Made by a program: the position numbers and the translations under genes | Part shown: in pieces, positions 678 to 59,930 of the stretch | Layout: every line of letters starts with the position of its first letter | How positions within the stretch are numbered: the stretch's first letter is position 1 | From: a virus | DNA: 59,930 nucleotides | Strand: one strand, 5' to 3' | Virus record (IMG/VR): IMGVR_UViG_3300035195_000113 | Coordinates: 1-59,930 of that record | Notes under the pieces: model-generated | Told to the model about the DNA's origin: nothing | Seen by the model: the letters and a program-made list of their open reading frames with translations, nothing else | The model's database searches: none

Positions 678-1326
678 ATTTTTTAAGTTTATTGTTATAC
701 AAATGCATGTTATGTGCGTGATGGTAATACCAGCCAGTTTCAATAGACAGCCTGTCTGCAACCATTTCTTGTAAAGATGCAAATTGATACTGATCATTAC
801 AAAAGCCGTACCAGATGTCATTAGAACGCATATAGACAGACATACAAAGCTTATCGTTTATAATTGTAAATTGAACAGCATAAGTACATGGTGTATCTTT
901 CTTATAATCATTAAACTCTTTAGCGTCGTATATACTTATTGCTGCGTGTCTAGTTTTAGGGTTTTGCCTTAACTTAGCAACAACATAATCTATTTGGTTG
1001 TTACGTTTCCACTGATAACCATAATTAGAATTTACTTTTCTATCGCTGTTTGCCATCTTTTCCCATATAGGTGGTATCTTACCGTATAGTTCTCCTAGCT
1101 TATCAATACTAGGATCACCTGACAAATACCAAGCCCATTCAGCTGCTGCATATTTTTGACTCCAGTTGCGCTCTTTATTTGTAATAAGCTTATCGCTTGG
1201 ATTCTCTATATAAAAGCCACAGTTAAATAAAGTTTTAGTATCATCAAAATCTTGACCATATTGTATGGCTTGATCTAGTAAAAACTCGTATGCTTCGTTA
1301 GCATTTTTAAATGTTGTATTTATCAT
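649..1326 (-). CDS. Thymidylate synthase family protein, probable dCMP hydroxymethylase
   Basis: 225 aa starting at MINTTF; an in-frame ATG 51 bases upstream would extend it into the preceding gene. Thymidylate-synthase landmarks are present: catalytic Cys147 in TPCTYAVQF, phosphate-binding Arg167 and Asp170 in MRSND, and HLY near residue 208. At the position of the pyrimidine-selecting Asn (Asn177 in E. coli ThyA) this protein has Asp178, in YGFCNDQY. Family knowledge: Asn to Asp at this site distinguishes dCMP hydroxymethylase (T4 gp42 type) from dTMP synthase. The short length also fits the hydroxymethylase. Likely role: converting dCMP to 5-hydroxymethyl-dCMP with methylene-tetrahydrofolate, to make modified DNA. 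A divergent dTMP synthase cannot be excluded. Confidence 0.75.
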   Translation of the reverse strand: MINTTFKNANEAYEFLLDQAIQYGQDFDDTKTLFNCGFYIENPSDKLITNKERNWSQKYAAAEWAWYLSGDPSIDKLGELYGKIPPIWEKMANSDRKVNSNYGYQWKRNNQIDYVVAKLRQNPKTRHAAISIYDAKEFNDYKKDTPCTYAVQFTIINDKLCMSVYMRSNDIWYGFCNDQYQFASLQEMVADRLSIETGWYYHHAHNMHLYNNKLKKYVLFIPHTR

Positions 1327-1549
1327 AATAATATTTGTAATATTTAAATATTGTCTCCCATAACTCCCTTGGGTCAAAAGCTTGAGGTGATCTATTTATC
1401 TTTTTATTTATCTCTACATCTATATACCACCAAGCAAAGTTTTCTTTACAAAATGGAGATATATAAATCCCGTTGTTTATACACCAGTGGTAAGCTTTAA
1501 AATCCTCAGGACTGTATGTATATACTGTTACTGTTTTCTTTTTTCTCAT
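1307..1549 (-). CDS. Hypothetical protein, 80 aa
   Basis: Starts at the ATG that overlaps the stop of the primase-helicase gene (ATGA) and ends 20 bases inside the next gene. It is basic at the N-terminus (RKKKTVTVYTYS) and aromatic-rich, with many Tyr and Trp residues. No domain is recognised. The tight overlaps on both sides support it as a real, translationally coupled gene in the nucleotide/replication operon. Confidence 0.6.
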   Translation of the reverse strand: MRKKKTVTVYTYSPEDFKAYHWCINNGIYISPFCKENFAWWYIDVEINKKINRSPQAFDPRELWETIFKYYKYYYDKYNI

Positions 1550-3258
1550 GCTTCCCAAGGCATAGCCTCATCGTTTATAGACATTTGTTCGTGTGGTATA
1601 AAACAACCTGATCTTGGTTCCCATTTAAAATGAGCTTCAGCGCCATTTTCACCAAGGTTTTGAAACTTAACTTTTAAGACCTTAGCCTTAACTGTTTTAG
1701 CTTCGTAGTCTCTGTGAACTAGTATACCGTGGTAACTAGCATCATACCATTCACCACCACCTTTAATGTTATACATAGTTGGTTCTTCCATTTTACCATC
1801 TTTGTCTTTATACATTTTAGTTGGGTGAGCAACTACAAAAACTAATACATCAAACTTTTTAGCAAAAACCTCTATTTTTGTTAAATACTCCATAGTATAT
1901 CTGTTAACATCTTCAGTCTTACAGTCTACGTCTCTAACTTTATTAAAAGGATCAATTACTAAACATTTGATACCTTTACGTTTAACTAGTTCAGCACCTT
2001 TTCTAAGTACTGATTCAAGAGTGTAACGTTCCATATCAATATGAAAGTAATTACTATTACAATGATCTGCTATTTGATTCCACTTTTCACCATGTATATC
2101 TGCAGCGGTAGGCATACCTTCCCATGTTTTACGCATTAGCTTGTGAGCATGTAAATACGTCGGCGCGTTTTCTGGTGATGCAAAAGCTGTTTTCCAACCG
2201 TAGTTACGATTATATCCGACAACCATTTGATCAACGAAGTCTGATTTGCCGCTACTAGGTATACCAGTGACAGTAATAAATTGACCGGTATAAGTAGAAA
2301 ATATGTCATCAAAATTGGATAAGCCAACTTGGTATCCTTTCTTAAAGCCATTACGAACAAAGTCAGTAACCTCATCTTCAATATCTTTGAATGTCGTAAC
2401 ATTTTCAAGTGGTACGGGTCTCGCTTTGTTAATACGCTTTGCCAGTTCTTGTTTTCCATGTTTTTGTAAGTATTCATTAGCATCTTTACAGTCATCAAAT
2501 GATGCTAGGTAACAAACTTCAGCTCCAAGTCTACGGACTAATTCTGATTGTAATGCTTGTCCTGCCTCGTCTGAGTCAACAGCTAATATTATTTTTTCTT
2601 TATCTTCAAAATAATCAATACAATTATCAAGGTAATCAAGATTATTAGAATTTAATGTAGCTCCGTTAGGAACTGATATAGCGTTTGGTATACCAGCTTC
2701 GTGTAAAGCCAACACGTCCATCTCGCCTTCAGTTATAACGCAAGTGTCATAACCTACTATGCTATTTATATTATAAAATACTTTTTCAGCTCCTTTATAT
2801 AATTTAAAGTTTTTACGACCATCTCTGTATTTAACATTGATAAGTTGGTCACCCATTATATAGTTGAACTGAATAGTGTTCTCGGCTTTGCCGGTTTGTG
2901 GCATCCACTCTTGACCCTCGCCGACCTTTAGATCGACAAGAGTCTGTTGTGAAATACCTCTTGTAGCAAACCACTCTTCTACTTTGGTAGATGGAGGAGC
3001 GTCGTGTATAGCACTTGGCCTTACATAAACTTTCTCGCTAGCACCTTTACGTTGATACGTGTGTAGTTGAAATGATGTGTTACAATTGTGACAAGTACCG
3101 AGACCCCGTTCCCAATCATAAGACGCACATTTAGCCTTTTGATTCTTGGGTTTTCTATCGTGAGAACAAATAGGGCATACACCCTGCTTTTTTCCCTCTT
3201 CAAGCTTATGTTGATTGAATTCATCAATCAAAAATCCATTGATCTCTGTTGTCTGCAT
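1546..3258 (-). CDS. Toprim primase / DnaB-like replicative helicase (T7 gp4 / Twinkle type)
   Basis: 570 aa bifunctional replication protein. The N-terminal zinc-binding domain has C28, C31, C56 and C59 (CPIC and CHNC pairs). The Toprim primase core follows, with E177 in ITEGEMD and the acidic pair D228/D230 in AVDSDEAG. The C-terminal RecA-like helicase domain has Walker A at 332-339 (GIPSSGKS) and a Walker-B-like strand CLVIDPFN. It unwinds the fork and lays down RNA primers at the phage replisome. Length and domain order match the T7 gp4 family, and all key motifs look intact. It heads the run of replication and recombination genes downstream of the SSB-like gene. Confidence 0.93.
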   Translation of the reverse strand: MQTTEINGFLIDEFNQHKLEEGKKQGVCPICSHDRKPKNQKAKCASYDWERGLGTCHNCNTSFQLHTYQRKGASEKVYVRPSAIHDAPPSTKVEEWFATRGISQQTLVDLKVGEGQEWMPQTGKAENTIQFNYIMGDQLINVKYRDGRKNFKLYKGAEKVFYNINSIVGYDTCVITEGEMDVLALHEAGIPNAISVPNGATLNSNNLDYLDNCIDYFEDKEKIILAVDSDEAGQALQSELVRRLGAEVCYLASFDDCKDANEYLQKHGKQELAKRINKARPVPLENVTTFKDIEDEVTDFVRNGFKKGYQVGLSNFDDIFSTYTGQFITVTGIPSSGKSDFVDQMVVGYNRNYGWKTAFASPENAPTYLHAHKLMRKTWEGMPTAADIHGEKWNQIADHCNSNYFHIDMERYTLESVLRKGAELVKRKGIKCLVIDPFNKVRDVDCKTEDVNRYTMEYLTKIEVFAKKFDVLVFVVAHPTKMYKDKDGKMEEPTMYNIKGGGEWYDASYHGILVHRDYEAKTVKAKVLKVKFQNLGENGAEAHFKWEPRSGCFIPHEQMSINDEAMPWEA

Positions 3259-3268
3259 TTAATTTAAT

Positions 3269-3364
3269 TTAATTTATTATTTCTTCGTCTCTACAGTCAG
3301 GGCATATGTCGCAGAACCTATATTCGTCCTGCGTCATACCTTGCCCACACATTTCACAATTCAT
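3269..3364 (-). CDS. Mini zinc-finger-like protein, 31 aa
   Basis: A 31-codon ORF in the gap between the SSB-like gene and the primase-helicase. Its ATG overlaps the SSB-like stop by one base (TAATG). It has two cysteine pairs: CEMC at residues 3-6 and a CDICPDC cluster near the end, typical of a small zinc ribbon. Function unknown. Position and cysteine spacing argue that it is real despite its size. Confidence 0.55.
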   Translation of the reverse strand: MNCEMCGQGMTQDEYRFCDICPDCRDEEIIN

Positions 3365-3675
3365 TAAAACGGTAAATCATCCGCTGGAGCAGCTGCTGGA
3401 GCTTGGGCCATTTGAGGTTGTGCATCTCTAGGTGGAGCAGCAACGTTGTCTCCGTTGGTCCACACTACTTTTACATTACCTAAATAAGTCTTAGCTACTT
3501 TAGCCTCTCTTTCTTCCTTTGATTGTTCTACAACCACAGGGCCTTGATTACCGAACTGATCAACTTCGTCGTTCAGTGTAATCGTAATTGGTAAGTATTT
3601 ACCCTTCTTACCTACATAGATTTTATCTTTAGGTATTTCATTAAGGTTAATACTAGCTTTAATTATACTTGCCAT
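3364..3675 (-). CDS. Single-stranded DNA-binding protein-like
   Basis: 103 aa, beta-rich N-terminal two thirds, then an Ala/Pro/Gln-rich linker ending in DDLPF. That acidic tail with terminal Phe resembles the SSB C-terminal peptide that recruits partner proteins. The position between exonuclease/ERF and primase-helicase genes fits coating of single strands at the fork and during recombination. Classical OB-fold SSB signatures are not obvious, so the assignment rests on the tail, size and context. ATG follows the upstream stop by one base (TAATATG). Confidence 0.7.
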   Translation of the reverse strand: MASIIKASINLNEIPKDKIYVGKKGKYLPITITLNDEVDQFGNQGPVVVEQSKEEREAKVAKTYLGNVKVVWTNGDNVAAPPRDAQPQMAQAPAAAPADDLPF

Positions 3676-3676
3676 A

Positions 3677-3853
3677 TTAGTACGCGTTTAATTGGTTAAA
3701 CATTCTTGTTAATTGCTCTTTTGTAGCACCAGTAGTACGTCTTATATTGTCTACTGCTTTAACATGATTTTGGTTTGTGTAAAAGTTATCTACACTTGTT
3801 TTCACTCCTGTTACTGTACAAATTTTAGTTTGGTTTTTTCTTGGTCTAGCCAT
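3677..3853 (-). CDS. Hypothetical basic protein, 58 aa
   Basis: Starts MARPRKNQT and ends MFNQLNAY; basic and rich in Asn and Thr. The stop is one base before the SSB-like ATG, and the gene follows the exonuclease gene by three bases, so it lies inside the recombination operon. No domain is recognised. The basic N-terminus would suit nucleic-acid binding, but that is a guess. Confidence 0.6.
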   Translation of the reverse strand: MARPRKNQTKICTVTGVKTSVDNFYTNQNHVKAVDNIRRTTGATKEQLTRMFNQLNAY

Positions 3854-3856
3854 AAT

Positions 3857-4588
3857 TTAAAGGGTTTTAGTTAAAAAAAATTGTTGAGGATCAAACTCCT
3901 CGGTCTTAAAAAATAATTTATATTGTTCTGCTGCTTGTTGAACTTTGTCAGCTCCTCTTTCGTAGAACTGTGGTGAGCAGTCAAATATACCTATTTGGTG
4001 AGTTGTTTTGTCTATAACTATAAACAACATTTCATAACCAAACAGTTTACTATAAATATAAGCTTGTGAGTCGTAATTGTACTTAGAAGCTGAATATTTA
4101 AATTTAGTGATGTCTGCTGTTGTTTTCAAATCAATGATCAGCTTTTCATCATGGTTTACAATATCAGCTTTACCTTTCCACATTTCGCCTTCAAGCTCTG
4201 TAATCCCTGGTCTTTCGTATTCTACGTTGTTACCTCGTATAAGATCTCTGCAAACTTCATTTGACATCATTTTATCTGTCATTAGTTCTATCTTATCTAC
4301 CTCCGTTTGTAACAAACATAGTTCACCACCTGAGATCTCTTTATACGCTTTTGAATTTCTATTTGTTGATTCTACAATCTTAAAGTTTTTAAGCTTTTCA
4401 GGTTCTAGTATCGCTGTATGGAAATAACCACCAACTAAAAAAGCAGGTATTTGCTTTGATGGTTGACCTAGCGCTAAAGGATTTGTTAATAAAGTAGAAA
4501 TGTCAGAGTTACTAAGATACTTCTTACCGAAACTACCATAGTAATGCTCATCGTTTTCTAGTTGTTTTAACACATCTTCTTTTTTCAT
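3857..4588 (-). CDS. RecE-like PD-(D/E)XK exonuclease
   Basis: 243 aa. Features of the RecE/exonuclease VIII C-terminal nuclease are visible: an N-terminal YLSNSDIS segment, GGYFHTAILEPEKL, and the catalytic core WKGKADIV followed by IIDLKTT (the D...DLK nuclease motif), then KYNYDSQAYIYSKLFG carrying the QxxxY element. Such enzymes resect 5' strands from double-strand ends to give 3' overhangs. The ERF annealing gene ends directly before this start, so the pair forms a RecET-like recombination module. Confidence in the nuclease fold is high; polarity is inferred from the family. Confidence 0.85.
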   Translation of the reverse strand: MKKEDVLKQLENDEHYYGSFGKKYLSNSDISTLLTNPLALGQPSKQIPAFLVGGYFHTAILEPEKLKNFKIVESTNRNSKAYKEISGGELCLLQTEVDKIELMTDKMMSNEVCRDLIRGNNVEYERPGITELEGEMWKGKADIVNHDEKLIIDLKTTADITKFKYSASKYNYDSQAYIYSKLFGYEMLFIVIDKTTHQIGIFDCSPQFYERGADKVQQAAEQYKLFFKTEEFDPQQFFLTKTL

Positions 4589-5192: not shown

Positions 5193-5951
5193 CTACAGGT
5201 AATCAAGCACTTGCGAGTGATCTACACTGTCTATAAGTTTTTGCACAGCTTGTTTTTTTAACTGAGAAACTCTAACATAGGAGCTACTACCTTGTATTTT
5301 TAAAGCTTTAGCTATTTCTTTAGCTGGATGCTTATCACAGTCTAAACCATAGCTAAGTCTAAGTATATTAAACTCTAACTCATTTAAATGTTTTTTAAGT
5401 AAGCCAGTTAAGTATATGTTTAGTATTTGTTGATTATATGGTTCTGATTTATCAGGTATATCATATATAGGGTTGTCGTCATTATTAGGTTTTTCATCTA
5501 TACTTAAAAATATAGAATTAAAAAACATAGCAACCATCTTTTCATCTTTACCAAAGTTTTTACGTATGTCATTTAATTTGTGCTCTGGTATACGTATATC
5601 ACCTCTGTTTATATCTATAGATCTTCTTATAGCTCCTTTAATTCTTTTACTAAAGAAAGACTTTAATGTCTTTTCATAGTCTTCTGATTTTTCTAGTGTT
5701 GGCCAGTCTAATCTATCAACAGCTTTAGTTAATCCAGCTCCGCCTGCAGATATTAAATCTAGTATACTTTGTACACCTGATGCTTGTTGGGTTGTAGAGA
5801 ATTTTCTAGCTAAGCTTTCTACTAACGGCATAAACTTAGTTATAAGCTCTTCCCTAGTACAGTCTTTCCAGTCTTTTCCTTCTAGCCTTAACAAAGCTTG
5901 TTTAAGATCTTCTTTATATCTTATATAGTTTTGTATGTTATACTTCTTCAT
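5193..5951 (-). CDS. Phage-encoded sigma-70-family RNA polymerase sigma factor
   Basis: 252 aa. Region-2-like segment: LITKFMPLVESLARKF, then DLISAGGAGLTKAVDRLDW, matching the sigma 2.1-2.4 pattern (core binding and -10 recognition). The basic KRIKGAIRRSIDINRGDIRIP resembles region 3. The C-terminus has LNELEFNILRLSYGLD, then HPAKEIAKALKIQGSSSYVRVSQL, a region-4 helix-turn-helix. It probably redirects host RNA polymerase to phage promoters, and the repeated 33-bp elements between 8.7 and 13.2 kb are the obvious candidates. The start overlaps the previous gene by 14 bases. Confidence 0.85.
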   Translation of the reverse strand: MKKYNIQNYIRYKEDLKQALLRLEGKDWKDCTREELITKFMPLVESLARKFSTTQQASGVQSILDLISAGGAGLTKAVDRLDWPTLEKSEDYEKTLKSFFSKRIKGAIRRSIDINRGDIRIPEHKLNDIRKNFGKDEKMVAMFFNSIFLSIDEKPNNDDNPIYDIPDKSEPYNQQILNIYLTGLLKKHLNELEFNILRLSYGLDCDKHPAKEIAKALKIQGSSSYVRVSQLKKQAVQKLIDSVDHSQVLDYL

Positions 5952-10367: not shown

Positions 10368-10374
10368 ATGTTAG

Positions 10375-10448
10375 GTGCGCAGGAAGGATTCGAACCTTCG
10401 ACCTCGAGTTTATGAGACTCGCGAGCTAACCATCTGCTCTACCGCGCA
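10375..10448 (-). tRNA. tRNA-Met (anticodon CAT)
   Basis: A complete cloverleaf can be drawn. Acceptor TGCGCGG pairs with CTGCGCA (one G-U), followed by T8/A9. The D arm is GAGC/GCTC with a loop containing GG. The anticodon arm is CGAGT-CTCATAA-ACTCG with anticodon CAT. The T arm is GAAGG-TTCGAAT-CCTTC. CCA is not encoded; the discriminator C is followed by CTAA. The anticodon stem lacks the three G-C pairs of initiators, so elongator Met, or Ile2 if the C34 is modified to lysidine, are both possible. Confidence 0.93.
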
Positions 10449-14201: not shown

Positions 14202-15767
14202 ATGGAATATAATAACCCTAGCGAGTTAGTAAAGGAACTATCCTTTGGTGATGATGCTAAACAAAAAGTAATAAATGGTGTAGACAAACTAGCTAAAGCA
14301 GTGAAGTCTACGTTAGGAGCTTCAGGTAAGTGTGTAATTTACGAAGATGCTCGTGGAAGACCGGTGATAACAAAAGATGGTGTAACCGTTGCGGAAAGCG
14401 TAGTCTTAATGGACCCGGTCGAAAACATAGGAGCAACACTTATTAAGGAAGCTGCTAAAAACACAGTGAAAGAAGCAGGTGACGGTACTACTACAGCTAC
14501 CGTACTTGCTGAATCACTACTAAAAGAAGCATCGTCAGCCGTAGGATCTGTAAGAGATATAAAGCTTGGTATTGCTTCTTGTGCTAAAAAAGTAAATGAT
14601 TACTTAGATAGTGTATCTATAGAAGTAAAAGGTGAAATGTTAAAAGATGTAGCAGCTATATCATGTAACAATGATGCTACACTAGGAGCTATAATATCTG
14701 AAGCTTATGAAAAAGTAGGTGAATCAGGTGTTGTACTAATGGAAGAATCAGAAGATGATAGAACATACGTTGAGATTGTTGATGGAGTTCAATTAGAGTC
14801 TGGTTTAAAATCACAGCATCTTATTACTGATAGAGACAAACAAAGAATTGTTCTTGACAAACCAATGGTTTTAATAGTTGCATCGGAAATACCTAACGTA
14901 AGAAAGATACAACCTATACTAGAACATGTTATAAAGCATAAAAGATCACTACTTATAGTAGCTGAAGTTGATACACAGGTATCATCTACGTTACTAATGA
15001 ATAAAGTTAAAGGTAATATTAAAGTAAACTTTATAGATCCACCAGGATTTGGGCCAACAAAGCAAAGTACGCTTGAAGATTTAGCATTTTTAACAGGTGC
15101 TACTATAATGGACGAAAACCTAGGTGATGATTTAGACCTTATAACCGTTGATTGTTTAGGTGAAGTGCAAAAATCGGTCACAGATGATAAAACAACAGTA
15201 CTAACCACATTGGATTTAGGCTTAGATTTAGAAGAAAGGATCAAGGATGTGCACAAAAGCATAAAAAAAGAAAAAAACCAGTACATTAAACGTAGATTAG
15301 AGCAAAGATTAGCCATGTTAAGTGGTTCAGTTGGTATAGTCAAGGTCGGTGCTGATTCAGCTGTTGAGCTGAAAGAGAAAAAAGATAGAGTTGAAGACTC
15401 TATATACGCTGTGAAAGCCGCCTTGAAAGAAGGAATAGTCCCGGGCGGTGGAGTAGCGCTGTTTGATGCAGCAAAAAACATTGAACCAAGCAACTTAGGT
15501 GAAGAAATACTGTTAAAATCAATATTATCTCCATTTTACACTATATTAGACAATGCAGGTATAAAAAACAACGTAGTAAAAGGCGTTGTTACTGGTTACG
15601 GAATAGATGTAACCACTGGCAACTGTGTTAATATGGTTGAAAAAGGTATAATTGACCCAGTACTAGTAACTAAGTCAGCTTTAAAAAATGCAATATCAGT
15701 AGCTTCTACTATAATATCTGCAGATTGTGTAATCTCTAACGTAAGGATCGAAAATGCAAGCAGTTAA
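14202..15767 (+). CDS. groEL: Phage-encoded GroEL-type chaperonin (Cpn60)
   Basis: 521 aa, near full GroEL length but without the Gly-Gly-Met C-terminal tail. Group I signatures: [10 protein letters not shown] at 55-64 with the equivalent of Asp52, [14 protein letters not shown] at 91-104 (nucleotide-binding Asp94), the apical domain in the middle, [20 protein letters not shown], and YGIDVTTGN. It should form an ATP-driven folding chamber, probably for capsid or fibre proteins. The C-terminal 14 bases overlap groES, reversing the usual groES-groEL order. The sequence is clearly divergent from bacterial GroEL, so it is a true phage version and not a recent host copy. Confidence 0.95.
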
Positions 15768-46117: not shown

Positions 46118-49100
46118 ATGCCAGAGTTAAAGCACCATTTTCGCTTCGGGAAGATGAACAAAGACCTTGATGAAAGGTTAGTTCCAAATGGCGAATATAG
46201 AGACGCTCTGAATGCTCAAATAGCTAGTTCAGAAGGAAATGATGTAGGCACTTTACAAAACGTGTTAGGTAACAAGTTGGCTTACCCATCTCTAATGAAC
46301 ATAGCTGGATCTAAATGCATCGGCTCTTGTAGAGACTCTGCTAATGATAAAATATACTGGTTCATAACAGGTACATCTATTGATGTTATAGCTGAGTATG
46401 ATCAGTACACTAAAACAGTATCACCAGTCTTGGTAGATACTAACAACATCTTAGATTTAAGTTCTAGTAACTTGATAACAGGTGTTAACATAATCGAAGG
46501 GTTATTATTCTTCACAGACAATAGATCTGAACCTAAGGTCGTTGATATTAAAAAGTTTAAAGAAGGTTCTTCTAACTTTACTACACACACTACACTAACA
46601 ACAGCATATTCAACAGCAACTTATGGCTTTACACTAGATGATGTAACTGTTATAAAGAAATCGCCAATCGAAGCGCCGACAATAGCCATGTCAGCATCTT
46701 TAAGAGGCGGTATAGTCGAAAGTGTATGTATAGCAAAAAGCTTTGTTGATGGTAGCGGAGAGGCTTTAACACCAGGAGCTCACCCTGATTCTAATAGTAA
46801 TTTTACTTTCCAACATAACATGAACCTACAGGTAGGTGATAGGTTAAAGTTTACAATATTAGACGAATCAGAAGATGACGAGGTTATAGCTACAGTTATA
46901 GATATTCTTTCTTTTTCACCAAATAGCTTTAAGTTAAACTTAGATTCTATATCTGATGGTATAGTTACTGGTACCCAAGACTGGAAAGTTATATTAATGG
47001 AAGATAAATCTTTGTTTGAATTTAAGTTTCCTAGATTTGCATATAGATACAAGTATGATGATGGCCAGTACTCTGCTATTGGGCCATTTAGTCAAGTAGC
47101 TTTTTTACCAGATGAGTTTGATTATAATCCTAAAAAAGGTTTTAACAAAGGTATGGTTAATACTTTAAAGAAATTAACTATATCAAACTTTGTTACAAGT
47201 CATTTACCTAAAGACGTTATAGAAATAGATGTATTATACAAAGAAGATAAAAGCACTAACATATACACGGTTAAAAGTTTAAAGGGTAGTCCTGAAAACC
47301 AAGATGAAGAGTGGACTAATAACTCTATGCTAATAGAGTCTGAGATAATATACAAAGTACTACCATCTGTTCAGCTACTTAGACCTTGGGATAATGTTCC
47401 TAAAAAAGCTAAAGCTCAAGAGTTTTCTGCAAACAGATTGATATACGCGAACTACACACAACAATATGACATTAAAGATGTTAATAACGCAGAAATAACA
47501 CCTAAGTTTGATGTATCTATAATACAATCAGATGACTCTAGTTATGGCGTTAGAACACCAGGTAAGTCTATAAAGTCCATGAGAACATATCAATTAGGCG
47601 TTGTTTATAAAGATGCTTTTGGTAGAGAGACACCAGTGTTAACAGACACTACAGGTTCAATACAATTACCTAAATCACAAGCTGTTAACTGGAATGTTCT
47701 TAATGTGAAGATTTTAAGTAATCCTCCTTCTTGGGCAACACATTATAAATACTTCTTAAAAGAAACATCTGCTGAGTATTATAACTTAGCTATGGATAGA
47801 CACTATCCTGCTGAAGATGGTAATGTTTGGTTAGCTTTTCCTTCCGCTGAAAGAAACAAAGTTAATGATGAAACTTTTTTAATATTAAAGAAAAGACATG
47901 ATAGTGATGCTTTTGTTGAAGATGAAGCTAGGTACAAGATAATAGCTATTGAAAACGAAGCTCCAGATTTTTTAACAATATCAAAAGTGTCTAAAGGTAT
48001 AGCTACGGCAGATAATAATGGTAACTTATTTATAGATGGTGGTTACCCAGAAAAAGGTACTGCGCAAATAAGAATACCTAGAAGTTTATGGAAACCTCAT
48101 TTTGGTGGAACAACAGGAAGCGGTGATGACATAGATTTATCAACAGCATCAATACATACTCTTTCAGACTTAATGGTTAGAGTAAAAAAAGGTAACAATG
48201 TTACTAAGTATTATGATATAGCTAATATAATTTACGAGCCTGTGGCTGGAAACTTAGAGTTTGTTAACACAACTACAGATTGCCCAGATGATAAATATTG
48301 GCAAATAAATATAGAAAAAACATTCGATGAGTCAGATGTTAATTGGTTAGGTACTGTAGGAGGAGGTGACACTATACAGAGCGTTTCAATGACTGTTGAA
48401 ATTGCTCAAAAAGTAAGAAAACTAAAACCAGAGTTTCAAGGTAGATTTTTTACTAAAATATACAGAGACTCTTCGCTAGAGCAAAACATATTACAATTTG
48501 GCAACATTGATGAGATGAGAACTATAGCTCAAAATAACTTTTGGCAAGTTGGTAATGATGCTGGTACATCTTTAGGTGCTAATACTGGTGGTAATCAAAG
48601 TACTAGGTATAACTATTGGAAAAAGAAAGATAAAGGAACAGGGACTAATTTTGGTGCTGGTTGGTTTATACCTAGGTTTACTAAATTTTATTCATGGAAA
48701 GATTTAGGTGGTGAAGGAGATGTAAATCCAAACAGAGATTTAGGTGCAAGTAGCCATCCGCACACGGCTGTAAAAAATACGCAAGGATACGGTATAAGGC
48801 AAGGTGAAACAGTTATTGAACTTGCTTTTCACGCTTTTGGTGATGGTGCGAGTAATAGTAAGAGTGGCCAAAACAGTGTAAAATGGGGTGAGTGGATTAA
48901 GTTTGGAAACACAGTCGCGCCTCAACACAAGGATTTTGTTAATGCATTACAAACAACTGGTAATTACATAAAGTTTTCAGGTGATCCTGATCAAACAGCT
49001 TATCAAATAAAAGGATATAGAAGAGGTGGTGCTATTATGTTTAAAGGTAGAAATAGTAACGGAAACGGTAGAACAGGTACTTTTGGATCTTCAAGAGTTG

Positions 49101-50536
49101 TAATATTTACAATAAAGCTAGATAAACCTATACAATGGGCTCCAGAAGACAATGTACCAAACATATTAAATGGCTATCATTATAATACACCTATACAAAT
49201 AGGTACAACCTACGTTGACGAAGATGATTTAGACGGATTTACAACAGATAACCCAGGTATATGGGAGACTGAACCCAAAGAAGTTGCTGAGCTAGACATA
49301 TATTACGAGGCTAGTAATGCTTACGCTATTAGTACACATGGTAACGATATAGCTTTAGATTATCATAATTGCTATTCCTTTGCTAACGGAGTTGAATCTA
49401 ATAGAATAAGAGATGATTACAACGCTACATATATAGCTAAAGGAGTTAAAGCTAGTAGTACTTTAGCAGAGCAATACAATGAAGAGGTTAAAACTAATGG
49501 TTTAATATTTTCTGGTATATTTAACTCTACATCTAGTGTAAATAGACTAAACCAATTTATAATGGCAGAATCTATAACTAAAGATATTAACCCTTCTTAC
49601 GGAAGTATACAAAAGTTAGATACTAGAGATACGAACATATCTGTTTTCTGTGAAGATAAAGTATTAAGAATACTAACAAACAAAGACGCTTTGTTTAATG
49701 CTGACGGAAACGCTAATATAACTTCTAATAGAGCTGTGTTAGGCCAAGCTGTACCATATGTTGGTGAATTTGGCATAAGTAAAAACCCTGAAAGCTTTGC
49801 TAAGTATGGATTTAGAAGTTACTTTGCAGATAGAGCCAGAGGAGCTGTTTTAAGGCTATCTCAAGATGGTTTAGAATTAATATCAACAAAAGGTATGGGT
49901 GATTATTTTGGAGACAAACTAGCTGTTACTCAAATAGCTATTGGTGCTTATGATGAAGACAAAAGTTCTTATGATCTATCACTACAAAGTAACACAGTAA
50001 GAGGATCTGATGACACTGTTTCATACAAAGAGCAAGTTGGCGGTTGGCCAAGTAGAAAATCTTATATACCTGAAAGCGGTATTACTTTAAATAACATTTA
50101 TTATACATTTAAAAACGGTGAAATGTATTCTCACGATAATGAAATTAGAAATAACTTCTATGGAATCCAATATAATACTTCTGTTAAGTTAGTTATGAAT
50201 GAGATGCCTGATGTTGTTAAAGGTTTTAAAACATTAAACTACGAAGGATCTAAGCCTTATTACAAGCCTAACCTAACAGATGATCAGTATTATAATAATG
50301 TATTGCAATTTGGTTGGTATAATACAGCTGTAGAAACAGACTTGCAGTCAGGTATTGCTAATGAGTTCAAAGGAAAAGAAGGTAAGTTTTTCAATTACAT
50401 ACATGGCACAGGTACAACATTAAGTAATTTAGATACTAAAGAATTTTCTGTTCAAGGTATTGGTAACCTATCAAGTATATCAGGTGATGTTGCTCCAGCT
50501 AATATAACTATAACTTTAAAAGAAAACGACGACTAA
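46118..50536 (+). CDS. Tail stabilization-type protein, 1472 aa
   Basis: MPELKHHFRFGKMNKDLDERL then VPNGEYRDALNAQIA, EGNDVGTLQNVLGN. This start is the one I associate with stabilization/tail-tube proteins of Bacteroidota podoviruses (crAss-like and relatives). A long beta-rich body follows (beta-propeller-like stretches such as IYWFITGTSIDVIAEYDQY), and the C-terminus is a set of small beta domains. It should wrap or plug the short tail. Confidence is fairly high on family, lower on exact role. Confidence 0.75.
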   Translation: MPELKHHFRFGKMNKDLDERLVPNGEYRDALNAQIASSEGNDVGTLQNVLGNKLAYPSLMNIAGSKCIGSCRDSANDKIYWFITGTSIDVIAEYDQYTKTVSPVLVDTNNILDLSSSNLITGVNIIEGLLFFTDNRSEPKVVDIKKFKEGSSNFTTHTTLTTAYSTATYGFTLDDVTVIKKSPIEAPTIAMSASLRGGIVESVCIAKSFVDGSGEALTPGAHPDSNSNFTFQHNMNLQVGDRLKFTILDESEDDEVIATVIDILSFSPNSFKLNLDSISDGIVTGTQDWKVILMEDKSLFEFKFPRFAYRYKYDDGQYSAIGPFSQVAFLPDEFDYNPKKGFNKGMVNTLKKLTISNFVTSHLPKDVIEIDVLYKEDKSTNIYTVKSLKGSPENQDEEWTNNSMLIESEIIYKVLPSVQLLRPWDNVPKKAKAQEFSANRLIYANYTQQYDIKDVNNAEITPKFDVSIIQSDDSSYGVRTPGKSIKSMRTYQLGVVYKDAFGRETPVLTDTTGSIQLPKSQAVNWNVLNVKILSNPPSWATHYKYFLKETSAEYYNLAMDRHYPAEDGNVWLAFPSAERNKVNDETFLILKKRHDSDAFVEDEARYKIIAIENEAPDFLTISKVSKGIATADNNGNLFIDGGYPEKGTAQIRIPRSLWKPHFGGTTGSGDDIDLSTASIHTLSDLMVRVKKGNNVTKYYDIANIIYEPVAGNLEFVNTTTDCPDDKYWQINIEKTFDESDVNWLGTVGGGDTIQSVSMTVEIAQKVRKLKPEFQGRFFTKIYRDSSLEQNILQFGNIDEMRTIAQNNFWQVGNDAGTSLGANTGGNQSTRYNYWKKKDKGTGTNFGAGWFIPRFTKFYSWKDLGGEGDVNPNRDLGASSHPHTAVKNTQGYGIRQGETVIELAFHAFGDGASNSKSGQNSVKWGEWIKFGNTVAPQHKDFVNALQTTGNYIKFSGDPDQTAYQIKGYRRGGAIMFKGRNSNGNGRTGTFGSSRVVIFTIKLDKPIQWAPEDNVPNILNGYHYNTPIQIGTTYVDEDDLDGFTTDNPGIWETEPKEVAELDIYYEASNAYAISTHGNDIALDYHNCYSFANGVESNRIRDDYNATYIAKGVKASSTLAEQYNEEVKTNGLIFSGIFNSTSSVNRLNQFIMAESITKDINPSYGSIQKLDTRDTNISVFCEDKVLRILTNKDALFNADGNANITSNRAVLGQAVPYVGEFGISKNPESFAKYGFRSYFADRARGAVLRLSQDGLELISTKGMGDYFGDKLAVTQIAIGAYDEDKSSYDLSLQSNTVRGSDDTVSYKEQVGGWPSRKSYIPESGITLNNIYYTFKNGEMYSHDNEIRNNFYGIQYNTSVKLVMNEMPDVVKGFKTLNYEGSKPYYKPNLTDDQYYNNVLQFGWYNTAVETDLQSGIANEFKGKEGKFFNYIHGTGTTLSNLDTKEFSVQGIGNLSSISGDVAPANITITLKENDD

Positions 50537-52728: not shown

Positions 52729-53400
52729 ATGGATCCATCAATGGTAATTGGAGGCGTTAAAGCCTTAACTAGTATAGCCGGAGGAATTATCGGAAGCGGT
52801 AAAAGAAAACGAGAACAAAGACAGGCTCAAGCTGGTTACGATAAAACGTTGGCTAGATTAGAGAACATGGACACATCTAATCCTTATGCTAACCAACAGA
52901 ATGTCTACGAAGACTTAACTGTTAATACGCAGCAAGCTGATATGTTAGCTGGTCAACAACAACAATCATTGTCAAATACAATGGGTGCTTTACAAGGTGC
53001 AGCCGGTGGATCTGGTATAGCTGCGTTAGCTCAATCAATGGCTAATCAACAATCACAAAACTTACAACAAGCAACCTCTAGTATAGGGCAGCAAGAATCA
53101 CAAAATCAACAACTAGCGGCTCAACAAGCAGGTCAAATGCAAACTAATATGGCTCAGGGAGATATGATGTCTAGGCAAATGGAAGCTAGCAAAACAACAG
53201 GTATGTTGGGTAGAGCTGGCCAAAGGTTATCAGCTGCTAATCAAGCAAGGCAACAAGCTACAAACTCTATAATGGGTGGAGTTGGAGAACTAGCCGGTAT
53301 GGGTGCAACTTTCTTACCAGGAGGAGCTAATAACGCATTAAATAAAAACGCACCTGGCGCATCAGGCCAGATAACGCCTCCACCAGGTGGTGTAGCTTAA
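52729..53400 (+). CDS. Probable internal (ejection) virion protein, 223 aa
   Basis: N-terminal MVIGGVKALTSIAGGIIG is a Gly/Ala-rich membrane-active segment, followed by KRKREQRQAQAGYD and a long Gln/Ala-rich helical region, then GVGELAGMGATFLPGGAN. The pattern is that of T7 gp14-like small ejection proteins that enter the cell envelope during DNA delivery. Family by composition and position. Confidence 0.65.
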   Translation: MDPSMVIGGVKALTSIAGGIIGSGKRKREQRQAQAGYDKTLARLENMDTSNPYANQQNVYEDLTVNTQQADMLAGQQQQSLSNTMGALQGAAGGSGIAALAQSMANQQSQNLQQATSSIGQQESQNQQLAAQQAGQMQTNMAQGDMMSRQMEASKTTGMLGRAGQRLSAANQARQQATNSIMGGVGELAGMGATFLPGGANNALNKNAPGASGQITPPPGGVA

Positions 53401-53414
53401 TTAACAATATATAT

Positions 53415-54677
53415 ATGGAACTACCAGATTACTCAGGAGCAAAAGTTGGTCAAGTGACTAACGTCGATGCGATGAATAACTCTAAGATGTTAGATAAACA
53501 TTTTGAAGAACAAATGAATAGTATTGTTGCTCGAAAAAGACAACAAAAAATAGAAGAAGCTAGAGCTAATGGTAAGGTTGAAAAATATCTTAACAGTATG
53601 CCTGATGGTATAGACACTAGTAAGTTACCACAAAAATACATACCTGGTGTTCAAGAGTGGGCTAAAGAAAGACAATTAGAGTTTGCTCAACTAGCTCAAC
53701 AAGCTGCTACAGCAGAAAGTAATGGTGATTTTTCAAACAGTGTTTTAATTAAAAGTGAAATGAGTAAAATAGAAAGCTCATTTAGAAACTTAGATGGTCA
53801 ACTTACTTCGTTTAAATCCTATAAAGATAACTTTTTAGATGATAGCCAAAACGGTATGGTTAGCAACTCTGTAAATACTAATAAAAGAAATTTATTATCT
53901 TCTGTATATACTGATGAGTTAAATATGAGTTTTGATGAAAGTGGTGGAATTACATTTGTTAACGAAGAAGGTGGTTATGTTAAGTTTGACGAAATACCTG
54001 ATTATACTGTAAAAAACAATAAAGGTGCTAGCGAGATATTAAATATGAATGAAGCTGTTTATAAAAGTGGAGTAATGAGTCCTAGCTCAGAAAGGTTATA
54101 TAGAATGAAACTACAAAATATAACCAAGTCAAGAGATGAAGTAATGTCTTTAGCTACTGATGATTTTATAACAGAAGGTGGTCTTGGTATAATGGACGAT
54201 GACTTGTTGTACAACGAAGAAAGAACTGATGAGCTTAGAAATATGGTTATAGATTCTTATATGAACATGTTTAAAGAAACCGCATCAACCAGTGTTAAAG
54301 AAAAGGCTAACAGAACAAGAACAAAAACTAGAAGCGGTAGCGCAACTGAAAGAAAATACGGAACAGTATTAAACAATATGTTTAAAGGTTTAAGTAATTT
54401 TGCAAATGGTGACGGAGGTTCTTTAACAGCTTACTCTAAGGGTCAATTTTTAGATAACGAAGACGGTACTGGTGATCTTATATATAGCGACGAAGTTATA
54501 AGTCTAGGTAAAGAATTAAATGAAAACACTATTTATAGAATATTAAAAAAAGAAGGTGTACCAGATAACATGATACCTTCTTTAGAAGAAATTAGAGAAA
54601 TGATAAATGGTGGTAGTAGTGAAGAACAAGCTACAGAACCATCAGCAGCAGATTTAATAGCTAAATACTCGAATTAA
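53415..54677 (+). CDS. Probable internal/ejection protein, 420 aa
   Basis: Starts MELPDYSGAKVGQVTNVDAM; PDYSG is shared with two proteins far upstream. The remainder is helical and charged (LDKHFEEQMNSIVARKRQQK, RTRTKTRSGSATERKYG), ending in EEQATEPSAADLIAKYSN. The position between the gp14-like gene and the giant protein suits an ejected core protein. Not a named family. Confidence 0.6.
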   Translation: MELPDYSGAKVGQVTNVDAMNNSKMLDKHFEEQMNSIVARKRQQKIEEARANGKVEKYLNSMPDGIDTSKLPQKYIPGVQEWAKERQLEFAQLAQQAATAESNGDFSNSVLIKSEMSKIESSFRNLDGQLTSFKSYKDNFLDDSQNGMVSNSVNTNKRNLLSSVYTDELNMSFDESGGITFVNEEGGYVKFDEIPDYTVKNNKGASEILNMNEAVYKSGVMSPSSERLYRMKLQNITKSRDEVMSLATDDFITEGGLGIMDDDLLYNEERTDELRNMVIDSYMNMFKETASTSVKEKANRTRTKTRSGSATERKYGTVLNNMFKGLSNFANGDGGSLTAYSKGQFLDNEDGTGDLIYSDEVISLGKELNENTIYRILKKEGVPDNMIPSLEEIREMINGGSSEEQATEPSAADLIAKYSN

Positions 54678-54679
54678 AT

Positions 54680-57600
54680 ATGGAAGAATTAGAATTGATC
54701 GTCCAAAGAATGATGGACGCTGGTGAGTCAGAGGAAAACATTAAAGCAGTCGTGCAGGAGTTTTCTGCGGGAAAGCAAACGGATCCTGTAAATGTGGAGG
54801 CAAATGCGGGGTCGGAAAAAGATATGGCCTCAAGATCGGAAGATGGTTTATCGGCTTGGCAGTCGGTTAAAAACTCATTTTCAAATATGTTCGAGCAAGT
54901 TGGCGATCTTGGTGAATTTTGGCTCGATCCAGGTGGTGAAGGTGAAGGTGCTAGATCCTCTTTAGATGTCGCGACTAACGCTGTTTACGCGGGTATTTTT
55001 GGTCAAGATGCCTTAGATAATTATGTTAAAGAGAAGGGTGAAGACTCATGGATGGCCCAAGGTCTTGGTAGTGATAAAACTCTAGAGTCAATAAAAAAAC
55101 ACGAAAAAGAAAAACAAGAATCCAAGCAAACCTTAGGCATCATTGAAAGTGCGAAAGAAGGTGATATTGGAGGTCTTTTAGCTGGAGGTGTAAATGCTAT
55201 TACTAGCATGATTGGTAGTGTTGCTTATGGAGTCGGTACGTTAGGTACTGGATTCTTTATGGATTATGTTGCTGAAAATTATATTGAGTTTAATAAACTA
55301 AAAGCTGAAAACCTAGGTATAAGCCTTGATGAGTTAATAAATAGTGGGAAAGCTGATCACGCAACACCAATAGGTATGGGTGCTATATCAACTGGTTTGG
55401 AACTTGTTGGTTTAGGTACTGTTTTGAAAGCAGGAAAAGGAGCTATTAAAGGCTCTTCAAGCACAGGTTTAATAGGCAGCGCTAATAAGTATATAGCTGA
55501 AAAATTAATATACAGCTCTAGCGCTAGAAAAGCTGTGTCAATTTTAGGTGCTGGTTCTACTGAATTTACAACAGAAATACTACAACATGCTTCTGACGAG
55601 ATAAATAGAGAATTTGGTAGTGTAGCTGGAACCGATAAGGAGGCTGAAATAGCTAAAACTTTTGTAGATGCTATAACTAGCGAAGAAGGACTAGAGGCTG
55701 GTATACAGGGTTTCCTCGGTGGAGGTGGAATGGTTGGAGGATCTTACTCAGCTAAAGCTATGAGCACTATACGTAGCACTGTTGATGGTAATAAGATTGA
55801 TAAAGATATAACTGAATTATCAAACTTAAGAAATCAACACAAAAACGCAACAGACAAAGACGTTAAAGAAGGTATACAAATAGAGATAGATAAAAAAGAA
55901 TCAGAAATATCAGACTCTATAAGAAAAGGTAATGAAATATACAACAGCCTTAACAGTGATCAGATAAGTGAAATAGAAAGTTTAACAGACTTAGCTGACG
56001 TGGCTGCTTTCAAAATAACTGATTTAAACAAGAAGCTTAGAAGAGGAGATATAACACAGTCTCAATATGATTCAGCTTCTATAGGTTTTAAAAACCAGTA
56101 TAAAAAAGCAAGACAGTCTTTAATAGACATGAACCTTGAAAAAAATATTGAGTTTGCTAAAAAAGAAGCAGAATCAAGAGGTTTAAAATTCAGAGTGTAC
56201 GAAACAACTAAAGCATTGCAAAAAGCAATGAATAGGTTTAAAACTAGTAAAGAAAATAAGCAAGAATTTAAAGATAACAAAGGTAATATACATGGTTTTA
56301 GTATAGGCAACGAGATTTTTATTAATAAAGAGGTTGCTAGGGAACAGGGAGCTATAAACGTAGGTGCTCACGAGGTTTTACACCCTATTTTTAATAAGTT
56401 AATTGGAGATGTTAAGAACCAAGGTAAATACGTCAAGCAGTTTAGAAAATCAATGACATCTGCTCAACGTAGTTTTGTGGATAACCAAATGAAAGAAAGA
56501 GGTTATACTAGCAAAGATCAATATAATACTGAGTATATAAACGTTTTCTCTGATGCTTTAAGAAACAAACAAATAAACTACGATAAAAACACATTTGAGA
56601 AAATAGGTGATGCTGTTTTAAGTATTATAAAACCAAAAGGATATGAAAATGCTTCTTTTGCAAATGGTAAGGAGGTTTATAACTTTATAAAAGAATATGA
56701 CAAAAGTATACAACAAGGAAAACTAACTAAATCAGCTAAAAAAGCCTTAGGTGACGTAGATCTTAGCGATGCTAGTCTTGAAGGTTCGATGCAGCAGAGT
56801 CAAGAAGCTGTTCAAGAAGTTAATGATATATACAACAATACTACGGATAAACAAATTGCAGGTTTTGACATAGCTGATAAATATAGAGGAATGGCTGAAT
56901 CTGTGTTTAATAGTTTAAAGGAAGGTAGTAATTATACGCAGAATCAAAAAGAGGTATTTAACGGTAAGAAAGAAGATATGCTTGCTATGATGTTGTATGA
57001 TAAAATACCTAGCCAAAAAGAAGACTCTAAAGCTAGGAATGTAGTTGGTTTAGTTCAAGACTTTGAATCTAAAAAACAAAAATATAATAACGTTGCCGCT
57101 TATGTAAATACTTTTTTCAAAGAAAGATCTAAAGAAGTATTTAAGTATTTTTCTAAAGATGCTGTTAACGAAGGTTTAACTAAGGAGGACGGTACTCTTA
57201 AGACTGCTGTTAGTAGTAAAACAAACGAAACATCTAATATAGACCAAGGCAAGAAGGCTAGAAAACTAAGCAGCTTTGATAAACTAATGAAAGGTGACAA
57301 GTCTTTTGTTGACCCTAAAATAAAAAGCAATATAATAACAAAGCTTACTAAAAACTTAAAAAGAATAGCTTTTAAAGGTAGGTTTAATGCTGAAAACATA
57401 ACTAACGAAATTAAAAGTTTAATAAAGCAAGAGATAGAAAACACTGTTGTTAAACGTATGGGTAAGATCAGTAAAACAAAAACTGGTGTTATCGTTAGTG
57501 AAGAGTATAAGAGCTTCCACAGTGAAAACTTTAACTCCATAATTAAAGCTCTACCTATATCTGTTATAAAGAAAAAATATCTTAAACTATTTAATTCTAA

Positions 57601-59930
57601 AAAAATAGCTAGAGAGAAAACAGGACCTGGTAACGCTATATTTGAAATAAAACCTACATCTAAAGGCGAGTTTGGTGCTTATTTTACTATAGGTGGTTAC
57701 ACAACATTAAGAGCTAGACAAAGGTCTTTAGCTAATGAAATTAGTGCTGAGATCATAAAAGATCAAGCTACTATTTTAAAACAAGATATTGATTTTGTTA
57801 GAGAATTAGCGGAGGTTGCTGACCTTAGTGGTGTACAAGTGACAGAGTTAGTGTTACAAACAGAGCTAGAGTCTTTAGCTAATCAGTTTGATAGAAAGAA
57901 AACAGAAGCTACTAAGTTTGATAGAATACAGTTTTCTAAAAACTTTAATAACGATCAAGTAAGTGAGTTAAACAAGAAAGGCAAAAAAATAATAGAACTA
58001 AGCAAAGTGTACACCACTGCTTCGTCTTTAGCAAACAAGCTAATTGAGATACTTGATCCTAAAGTTTTTACAGTTAAAGAGCTAAAAGACTGGAAAAATG
58101 AAATACAATCTAGTGTTAACGCTATATTAAGCCCTAAAAACACTTTACAGGATAATAAGCTAGGTGAGTATGTTGAGCAAAGAGTTGGGAACAAAAGCGA
58201 TCTACCTTTAATAAGAATGCTTGGTTTAAAGTCTTACGACGTGGTTATTAATGGTGTAAAAAAGAAATTTGCTAGTTTTGCTGAAGTTTTTAGAGACAAA
58301 AAATACATAGAGAGACAAAGAAAGCTTCATTTAGACTTTTTTGAACAAAAAGTAAAAACATTAGATGATTTAGTCTCGGTTTTAAAATGGTTTCCAGGCC
58401 ACACAATATCAGCTGGGGCAAGGTATTTCATGAAGTCAAGGAACCAGTCGTTTGCTGGTATGAAAGATTTAGTAGCGGAGCTTAATAAAATACTAGAACC
58501 TTTAGGTTGGGAGATAAAAACAAAGCTAACGATAGATGGTAAAACGCAGTTAGACAAAGTAATCAGCACAAAAACTGGAGAGGTTTTAATAGACAACAAA
58601 GACAAGGTAGTTGGTAAAAAGAAAATAAAATCACTTAGAAATCGCTTAACATCGTCGTCTCAAGATACTAATAAAACTGTTTTGCAGTACATAAAAGAGC
58701 TTCCTCAAAGAATAAAAGATGCGAATGAAGCTTGGAACACTATGATAGATTTTTTAACTTTTGTTAACAAAAACGGTGATAACTTAGATTTTGGAATGAC
58801 TATGATGAGTTTAAAATCTAACATGAGTAGTATGTTGAAAGCTGCTGCTCCTTTAACTTATTATTTTGAAGGGTCATATGTTGGTAAGTTAGTGTATGAG
58901 CATTTAATACCTACAGAGTACGTAGCTCAATCTTTAACTAAGCATTTTAAGATCAAAAAAATAAATTTAAATTCTTTACAAGATCAATACAAGGTCGCTA
59001 TAGTTCCTAAAACAATGGACGACAATATAAATGGGTCTGCTAGACAAGAAAATATGCCTACTTACTGGCAAATTGGCATGGAAGCTTTATTAAGATATTT
59101 TGATGATTTTACTTTTGGTTTTAAAAATATGTATGCTTTAAAAAACCTCCAAACAGGTGATATAGTAGGTAAAAAACATGCGAACGTTCAATTTTCTAAA
59201 ACAGCTAAAATAAAAGCAGAAAACTTTAATAAAGCTATGATGAACGCTAGAAATCCTAATGCACCTGAAAAAGGTATTAGTGTTTTTGATTTTGATGATA
59301 CAATAGCTCAATCTAATAGTAAAGTACTATACGAATTACCTGATGGTAAAAAAGGCAGTATAAATGCCACGGAGTTTGCTTTACAATCTGCTGACTTAGA
59401 ATCTGCTGGCGCAGTGTTTAACTTTGAAGAGTTTAGTAAAGTTATAGAGGGTAAAAAAGGCCCATTATTTGACCTAGCAATGAAGCGTCAAGATAAGTTT
59501 ACTAGTAAAGATATATTTATATTAACAGCTAGACCACAAGAGGCAGCATTTGCTATACACGCATTTTTAAAAGGTATGGGTTTAACTATACCTTTAGATA
59601 ACATAACTGGTTTAGCTGATGGTAAGCCTTCTGCTAAAGCTGATTGGATAATAAGCAAGGCAGCTGAAGGTTACAATAACTTTTACTTTGCGGATGATGC
59701 TTATAAGAATGTTAAAGCTGTACAAAAAGTATTAGACATAATAGACGTTAAAAGAGATGTTCAATTAGCTAAGATACAATTTAGCAAGGATATGGGTGAG
59801 TCTTTTAACGATATATTAGAACAAACAAAAGGTGTTGCTTCTGAAAAAAGATTTTCTAAAGCAGCTGCAAAATCAAGAGGTAGAGATATAGGTAAGTGGA
59901 AGTTTTTCTTACCACCTTCTGCGGAAGACT
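54680..59930 (+). CDS. Giant polyvalent-type virion protein with HExxH and HAD phosphatase domains (partial, >1750 aa)
   Basis: Open from ATG at 54680 to the window end (1750 codons, no stop). Segments: acidic N-terminus; Gly/Ala-rich, possibly membrane-active part (ISAMIGS-like region near 165-200); an HExxH motif AHEVLHPIF at H564, E565, H568; long helical middle; and a HAD phosphatase domain with motif I DFDDT (D1537/D1539), motif II ILTARP (Thr1616), motif III Lys around 1654 and motif IV FADDAYK (D1672/D1673). A repeated QFSK/RFSK peptide occurs at about 1084, 1504, 1700 and 1724. This fits the polyvalent proteins that phages inject with their DNA; N4-type vRNAP was considered, but no RNAP motifs were seen. 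Confidence 0.8.
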   Translation, partial: MEELELIVQRMMDAGESEENIKAVVQEFSAGKQTDPVNVEANAGSEKDMASRSEDGLSAWQSVKNSFSNMFEQVGDLGEFWLDPGGEGEGARSSLDVATNAVYAGIFGQDALDNYVKEKGEDSWMAQGLGSDKTLESIKKHEKEKQESKQTLGIIESAKEGDIGGLLAGGVNAITSMIGSVAYGVGTLGTGFFMDYVAENYIEFNKLKAENLGISLDELINSGKADHATPIGMGAISTGLELVGLGTVLKAGKGAIKGSSSTGLIGSANKYIAEKLIYSSSARKAVSILGAGSTEFTTEILQHASDEINREFGSVAGTDKEAEIAKTFVDAITSEEGLEAGIQGFLGGGGMVGGSYSAKAMSTIRSTVDGNKIDKDITELSNLRNQHKNATDKDVKEGIQIEIDKKESEISDSIRKGNEIYNSLNSDQISEIESLTDLADVAAFKITDLNKKLRRGDITQSQYDSASIGFKNQYKKARQSLIDMNLEKNIEFAKKEAESRGLKFRVYETTKALQKAMNRFKTSKENKQEFKDNKGNIHGFSIGNEIFINKEVAREQGAINVGAHEVLHPIFNKLIGDVKNQGKYVKQFRKSMTSAQRSFVDNQMKERGYTSKDQYNTEYINVFSDALRNKQINYDKNTFEKIGDAVLSIIKPKGYENASFANGKEVYNFIKEYDKSIQQGKLTKSAKKALGDVDLSDASLEGSMQQSQEAVQEVNDIYNNTTDKQIAGFDIADKYRGMAESVFNSLKEGSNYTQNQKEVFNGKKEDMLAMMLYDKIPSQKEDSKARNVVGLVQDFESKKQKYNNVAAYVNTFFKERSKEVFKYFSKDAVNEGLTKEDGTLKTAVSSKTNETSNIDQGKKARKLSSFDKLMKGDKSFVDPKIKSNIITKLTKNLKRIAFKGRFNAENITNEIKSLIKQEIENTVVKRMGKISKTKTGVIVSEEYKSFHSENFNSIIKALPISVIKKKYLKLFNSKKIAREKTGPGNAIFEIKPTSKGEFGAYFTIGGYTTLRARQRSLANEISAEIIKDQATILKQDIDFVRELAEVADLSGVQVTELVLQTELESLANQFDRKKTEATKFDRIQFSKNFNNDQVSELNKKGKKIIELSKVYTTASSLANKLIEILDPKVFTVKELKDWKNEIQSSVNAILSPKNTLQDNKLGEYVEQRVGNKSDLPLIRMLGLKSYDVVINGVKKKFASFAEVFRDKKYIERQRKLHLDFFEQKVKTLDDLVSVLKWFPGHTISAGARYFMKSRNQSFAGMKDLVAELNKILEPLGWEIKTKLTIDGKTQLDKVISTKTGEVLIDNKDKVVGKKKIKSLRNRLTSSSQDTNKTVLQYIKELPQRIKDANEAWNTMIDFLTFVNKNGDNLDFGMTMMSLKSNMSSMLKAAAPLTYYFEGSYVGKLVYEHLIPTEYVAQSLTKHFKIKKINLNSLQDQYKVAIVPKTMDDNINGSARQENMPTYWQIGMEALLRYFDDFTFGFKNMYALKNLQTGDIVGKKHANVQFSKTAKIKAENFNKAMMNARNPNAPEKGISVFDFDDTIAQSNSKVLYELPDGKKGSINATEFALQSADLESAGAVFNFEEFSKVIEGKKGPLFDLAMKRQDKFTSKDIFILTARPQEAAFAIHAFLKGMGLTIPLDNITGLADGKPSAKADWIISKAAEGYNNFYFADDAYKNVKAVQKVLDIIDVKRDVQLAKIQFSKDMGESFNDILEQTKGVASEKRFSKAAAKSRGRDIGKWKFFLPPSAED

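Follow-up and report, generated by a model that had tools for sequence, protein, structure and literature searches.

A giant, putatively virion-borne polyvalent protein of a marine podovirus combines a predicted zincin, a Pnkp-like HAD phosphatase and a recurrent FS(K/R) border peptide

A giant open reading frame at the end of the genome record of a marine, Bacteroidota-type podovirus encodes two unrelated enzyme domains in one very long chain—a zincin-type metallopeptidase and a HAD phosphatase, both with invariant catalytic residues—and bears short FS(K/R) peptides at the borders of its domains. The best explanation is a polyvalent virion cargo protein, in which cassettes are carried on a constant frame and the zincin would cut at FS(K/R) to free the payloads; we regard this reading as somewhat better than an even bet. 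The window, i.e., the whole analysed stretch of 59,930 nucleotides, is the entire virus record IMGVR_UViG_3300035195_000113 (IMG/VR class 'linear'). Hence, its own genome cannot finish the giant gene, which starts with ATG, comprises 1750 codons and is open at its 3' end, where the contig ends. The nearest relatives encode full-length proteins of 2450 (L002) and 2434 residues (L005), and the window ORF would thus correspond to the N-terminal 1750 residues of a protein of about 2450.

Table 1 Features of the giant ORF and of its surroundings in the window
Feature	Position	Strand	Residues	Remarks
Giant ORF	54680..59929	+	1-1750	3' end open
Conserved N-terminal leader	54680..54829	+	1-50	78-98% identity, four relatives
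Variable N module	54851..56119	+	58-480	14-25% identity to four close relatives
Zincin-type metallopeptidase module	56135..56809	+	486-710	
HEVLH (HExxH)	56369..56383	+	564-568	
E618	56531..56533	+	618	invariant downstream Glu, predicted third zinc ligand
B module	56816..57928	+	713-1083	
Variable slot cassette	57929..59188	+	1084-1503	no function assigned
QFSK, B/slot border	57929..57940	+	1084-1087	identity step vs L005/L003
QFSK, slot/HAD border	59189..59200	+	1504-1507	identity step vs L005/L003
HAD phosphatase domain	59219..59776	+	1514-1699	nearest fold: T4 Pnkp 3'-phosphatase
HAD motif I, DFDDT	59288..59302	+	1537-1541	
QFSK, HAD end	59777..59788	+	1700-1703	24-25 residues ahead of D module
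RFSK, D module start	59849..59860	+	1724-1727	
Helical D module, first residues	59852..59930	+		continues past contig; ~670 residues in L002
Muzzle-like tail protein	46118..50536	+		upstream of giant; PF25729 (crAss muzzle C-terminal domain) above cut-off
223-residue neighbour	52729..53400	+		homologous to MS-verified phi40:1 gp99
420-residue neighbour	53415..54677	+		weakly homologous to MS-verified phi40:1 gp100
Sigma-70-like protein	5193-5951	-		regions 4 and 2, below cut-off
tRNA-Met (cat)	10374-10448	-		also found by Rfam
Phage GroEL	14202-15767			Cpn60, E 4e-53
ORF, 1009 residues	21685-24714	+		no Pfam/PHROG match
ORF, 518 residues	32707-34263	+		no Pfam/PHROG match
ORF, 599 residues	50538-52337	+		no Pfam/PHROG match

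Profile searches in fetched viral contigs define a family of 108 loci with the zincin or the D module, and 106 proteins above 900 residues (range about 900-4142). The family is unannotated, belongs to marine podoviruses of Bacteroidota type and follows the module order N / zincin / B / slot / optional HAD / D. The HAD domain is present in 61 of the 101 proteins with a C-terminal D module, with a median length of 2721 residues for proteins bearing it and of ~2177 for those lacking it. Where bacterial or archaeal genomes are matched, the hits fall in metagenome bins, several of them of Bacteroidota, and many are probably misbinned phage contigs. One giant, a 3859-residue protein (L157:741-12320, MW202828) annotated as 'reticulocyte binding/rhoptry protein', carries two HEFGH motifs and shares a homologous N module (E 1e-22) with the family; this name is hence probably wrong.

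A tblastn search with the giant itself as query returned no match among 50,697 phage records, and PDB sequence searches with the zincin, HAD and D module gave no meaningful one. The N module of the window, which contains two hydrophobic stretches, is of a type whose profile matches 18 proteins. The first-pass annotation had described the bulk of the chain as having no recognised domain: this stands for Pfam, NCBIfam and PHROGs, save that the HAD domain weakly matches a polynucleotide-kinase PHROG (E 0.009). For the slot cassette, Pfam gives no match and no PDB structure stands out against the corresponding stretch of the model, and the window protein contains none of the known polyvalent-associated Pfam domains (LPD/PolyVal series). 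LPD38 was considered as an identity of the D module and rejected—Pfam PF18857 is unmatched in 38 relatives, and the profile–profile comparison is not significant (P 0.03-0.05) despite a local register that looks plausible. The AF2 model of HAD and D resembles phage polyvalent proteins in BFVD.

The predicted metallopeptidase rests on more than the separate HExxH motif noted earlier, which reads HEVLH and is expected only 0.008 times in shuffles of the giant. Across 60 diverse zincin modules with 17-60% identity to the window, H564, E565, H568 and E618 are invariant, with the predicted third-ligand Glu 53 residues past the HExxH Glu; family-wide, HExxH is present in 92 of 93 zincin (Zn) modules. 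In a second structure model, the zincin part reaches a pLDDT of ~90 locally. Its best PDB matches are weak (Z 5.5-6.5) and comprise lethal-factor-type domains and PPEP-3, and some family members show weak Pfam matches to ATLF, M4, and DUF6782. The lethal-factor-type match is a resemblance of fold and implies no toxin. Iyer et al. tied phage MPTases to the same superfamily as lethal-factor-type domains (PMC5512222).

The HAD motif set is likewise complete, as first proposed, and spans residues 1537-1673 of the same ORF: motif I is followed by LTAR (residues 1615-1618), K1653/K1660, and DD (residues 1672-1673). The residues D, D, T, T, K, D, and D of motifs I-IV are invariant in the HAD domains of 25 diverse relatives, and DxDxT is kept in all 62 family HADs. 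In the AF2 model of HAD and D (mean pLDDT 80), the two best fold matches are both Pnkp phosphatases—the T4 enzyme (5uj0, Z 11.5, rmsd 2.7, 124 aligned residues) and 4xru (Z 11.3). The only phage family matched by the HAD region is polynucleotide kinase, with relative P0003 matching phrog_415 at E 1.3e-4. By fold and viral family, the domain thus appears closest to Pnkp-type 3'-phosphatases. A general nucleotide, sugar or protein phosphatase, accompanied in some relatives by a Zeta-toxin-like kinase acting on UDP-N-acetylglucosamine, is a substantial possibility, although we place it short of even chances: many other HAD structures match the model at Z 8-10, and the P-loop kinases that are nested inside the HAD after motif I in five relatives (L015, L023, L027, L033, and L036) score above the cut-off for Zeta_toxin in all five cases—as they do for AAA_33—with a profile that matches PezT and Pnkp about equally weakly. 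The two best folds and the sole matched phage family argue against it.

Zinc ligands and HAD catalytic residues alike do not vary among diverse relatives. Loss of the motif residues in homologues, which the first-pass annotation had named as a refuting condition, is thus not what the family shows. The same conservation makes an ordinary structural ejection protein with inactive HExxH and HAD domains very improbable, even if the position of the gene after virion genes and the helical D module would suit such a role.

The four spaced (Q/R)FSK peptides, which the first-pass annotation had guessed to be processing or linker sites, are all found (Table 1), with 4 observed vs 0.08 expected and none of 5000 shuffles reaching 4. 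Two extra FSK peptides of non-Q/R type are YFSK (F at residue 824) and EFSK (F at residue 1585). Across the family, the border peptide follows the consensus [IV][QK]FS[KR]. In 102 giants, its core pattern [IVLM][QK]FS[KR] was counted 84 times vs 3.75 times in shuffles—a 22-fold enrichment—with 2 occurrences of the reversed pattern and a single one in the other proteins of the same loci (351 proteins, 197,526 residues). FSK as such is found 222 times in giants vs 65 expected, and 32 times vs 36 expected in other ORFs of these loci; FSR is similarly enriched in the giants and not in the other proteins. Of 58 dereplicated relatives, 66% have FS[KR] upstream of the D module, most commonly 24 residues ahead, whereas only 2.8% of random windows contain it. 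At the B/slot border, F is kept in 55 and S in 56 of 66 relatives, where the region is only 16-36% identical to the window; the numbers for this border were read from a MAFFT alignment, and such alignments may stack like residues, whereas the pre-D and core-pattern counts are independent of the alignment. Not every border bears the peptide: the zincin/B border of the window reads MQQSQ instead of a clean FS motif, with QFSR there in relatives, and some HAD starts in the family have no FS motif. In seven LPD38 giants from bacterial genomes, FS[KR] is not in excess, and hence the peptide is not general to polyvalent proteins.

The 84 core sites comprise 64 distinct 15-mers and write serine as both AGY and TCN, which argues for selection on the peptide and rules out a mere DNA seam. 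A bias toward G-ending codons before FSK was traced to a general effect of K/Q before F. The guess of processing or linker sites is strengthened in that these candidate cleavage sites are enriched, located at borders and conserved at the peptide level. This selection also bears on a different role of the zincin, as an effector against a host protein, with FS(K/R) as relics of cassette joining. Zincins do serve as effectors in other conflict systems (PMC5512222), and the nearest zincin folds are peptidases or secreted-toxin domains. Relics, however, should decay, and a peptide with such enrichment and codon diversity makes this account improbable. In the close relative L004 (13390-13480), the giant gene is frameshifted by a small deletion just past IQFSK, which may be an assembly error.

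Cassette exchange can be followed directly at two of the peptides. Identity of the window giant to L005 and L003 is 90-93% immediately ahead of residue 1084, drops to 58-59% over residues 1084-1503 and returns to 89-91% over residues 1504-1700; both steps coincide with QFSK sites. Family-wide, a stricter segmentation that supersedes a looser one yields 108 breakpoint clusters, of which 9 are no more than 6 residues from FS[KR] vs 1.8 expected, and the other 99 lie away from FS motifs. Slot sequences of 66 relatives form 10 clusters, and domain architectures are shuffled between relatives. In L072, an ART-PolyVal-like domain (29.0 bits, under the cut-off of 31.2) directly precedes IQFSK and D, taking the place of HAD in others. 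In L085, a weak ART-like match is nested at the same HAD site as the kinases and is gone when the stretch is scanned alone.

These observations might be read in terms of a release code, with FS(K/R) addressed by the embedded zincin and some ~100 marine phage lineages sharing a self-processing injected polyprotein—an extension that we consider possible but tentative. At the same tentative level, payloads such as the Pnkp-like phosphatase, the nested Zeta/PNK-type kinase, the ADP-ribosyltransferase-like domain, and others would be slotted between fixed cleavage peptides. FS(K/R) could also be a docking or handling signal, bound by the portal, by a chaperone or by another partner protein, such that the chain is packed and threaded through the tail and the giant acts whole. 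A conserved short peptide in variable linkers suits any linear motif, the same genome encodes a phage GroEL, and N4 vRNAP has an MPTase, yet is packaged unprocessed (PMC5512222). Against this, the intact zincin is retained in nearly all family members, and the motif sits at cassette borders, where separation would be useful; we consider docking rather unlikely.

The gene neighbourhood connects the giant to the virion. The window encodes a terminase and a portal (phrog matches), a primase-helicase, and a ligase. By terminase and muzzle, its named relatives are Flavobacterium, Cellulophaga, Tenacibaculum, and Maribacter phages; the muzzle carries the crAss-type C-terminal domain, yet the nearest named relatives include Callevirus, which stands outside Crassvirales at NCBI. 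In these named relatives, the gene block from the muzzle onward ends with one giant gene. For phi40:1, gp97-gp101 are MS/MS-verified according to the GenBank record annotation and follow the same gene order as the window. As the two neighbours of the giant are homologous to gp99 and, weakly, to gp100, it occupies the place of a virion giant, and its own presence in virions would follow this pattern. The other refuting condition of the first-pass annotation, absence from virions, was thus approached through the positional counterpart in phi40:1. No homology was detected between the modules of the giant and phi38:1 gp101, which corresponds to gp101 of phi40:1. The GroEL of phi38:1 (gp054) is listed among the methylated proteins of free virions (PMC13288928). 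Together with the zincin and its third ligand, the conserved catalytic HAD, and cassette swapping, these virion-gene neighbours support the earlier proposal of a polyvalent protein of the injected type.

Polyvalent proteins of phage type are exemplified by P1 DdrB and N4 vRNAP, and their cutting into working units by MPTases was proposed in 2017 (Iyer et al. 2017, PMC5512222). The window giant shares with them the giant chain, the zincin-like MPTase, swappable enzyme cassettes including an ART-like one, and the virion-gene context. Unlike them, it bears a family-specific FS(K/R) border peptide, a Pnkp-like HAD—neither 'phosphatase' nor 'polynucleotide kinase' occurs in the main text of PMC5512222—and a D module without LPD38 match. 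PhicrAss001 gp45-gp50 are virion cargo for which ejection ahead of the DNA was proposed, and they resemble the window in that giant genes with mostly helical parts lie past a muzzle-type gene (PMC10172136). However, crAss gp47/49/50 are RNA polymerase-associated, whereas no polymerase family is matched in the window giant; instead, the window encodes the sigma-70-like protein, and host RNA polymerase may be used rather than an injected one. Closer in position are gp101 of the Callevirus phages phi40:1/phi38:1 and Elemovirus gp18, where the giant is the last gene of the same syntenic block. The zincin of Elemovirus elemo gp18 is homologous to that of the window giant (E 1e-10; hhalign E 1.6e-7), but HAD and D module are undetectable in these proteins and phi38:1 gp101 has no HExxH. 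T4 PseT/Pnkp has the HAD phosphatase fold in common with the giant, and five relatives likewise join a P-loop kinase to the HAD; unlike the T4 Pnkp tandem, their kinase is nested after motif I, and the window copy carries none.

In the polyvalent cargo reading, the giant would most likely share the capsid with the genome and be ejected when infection begins. Zincin, B module, and helical D module would form the constant frame, on which variable N modules and interchangeable payload cassettes are placed. In the window giant, these payloads would be the slot domain followed by the Pnkp-like HAD phosphatase, with cassettes meeting at [IV][QK]FS[KR]. The embedded zincin would cut at or beside the FS(K/R) peptides, either still within the head or once inside the cell, and thereby free the payloads. 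Nucleic-acid ends or nucleotides of the new host cell might then be the substrates of the released phosphatase.

Polyvalent proteins, and the idea that MPTases process them, are already known; within the searched literature, novelty appears to lie in the candidate border code, in the Pnkp-like payload and in the large family, and no cutting signal for polyvalent proteins was found there. The family pairs a concrete, conserved candidate peptide with an intact zincin and exchangeable payloads and, hence, makes the processing hypothesis of Iyer et al. testable. It also adds a nucleic-acid-repair-type phosphatase—plus a nested kinase in some relatives—to what phages may deliver at the start of infection. 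A phosphatase delivered in this way would suit the early repair of RNA or DNA ends inflicted by the host.
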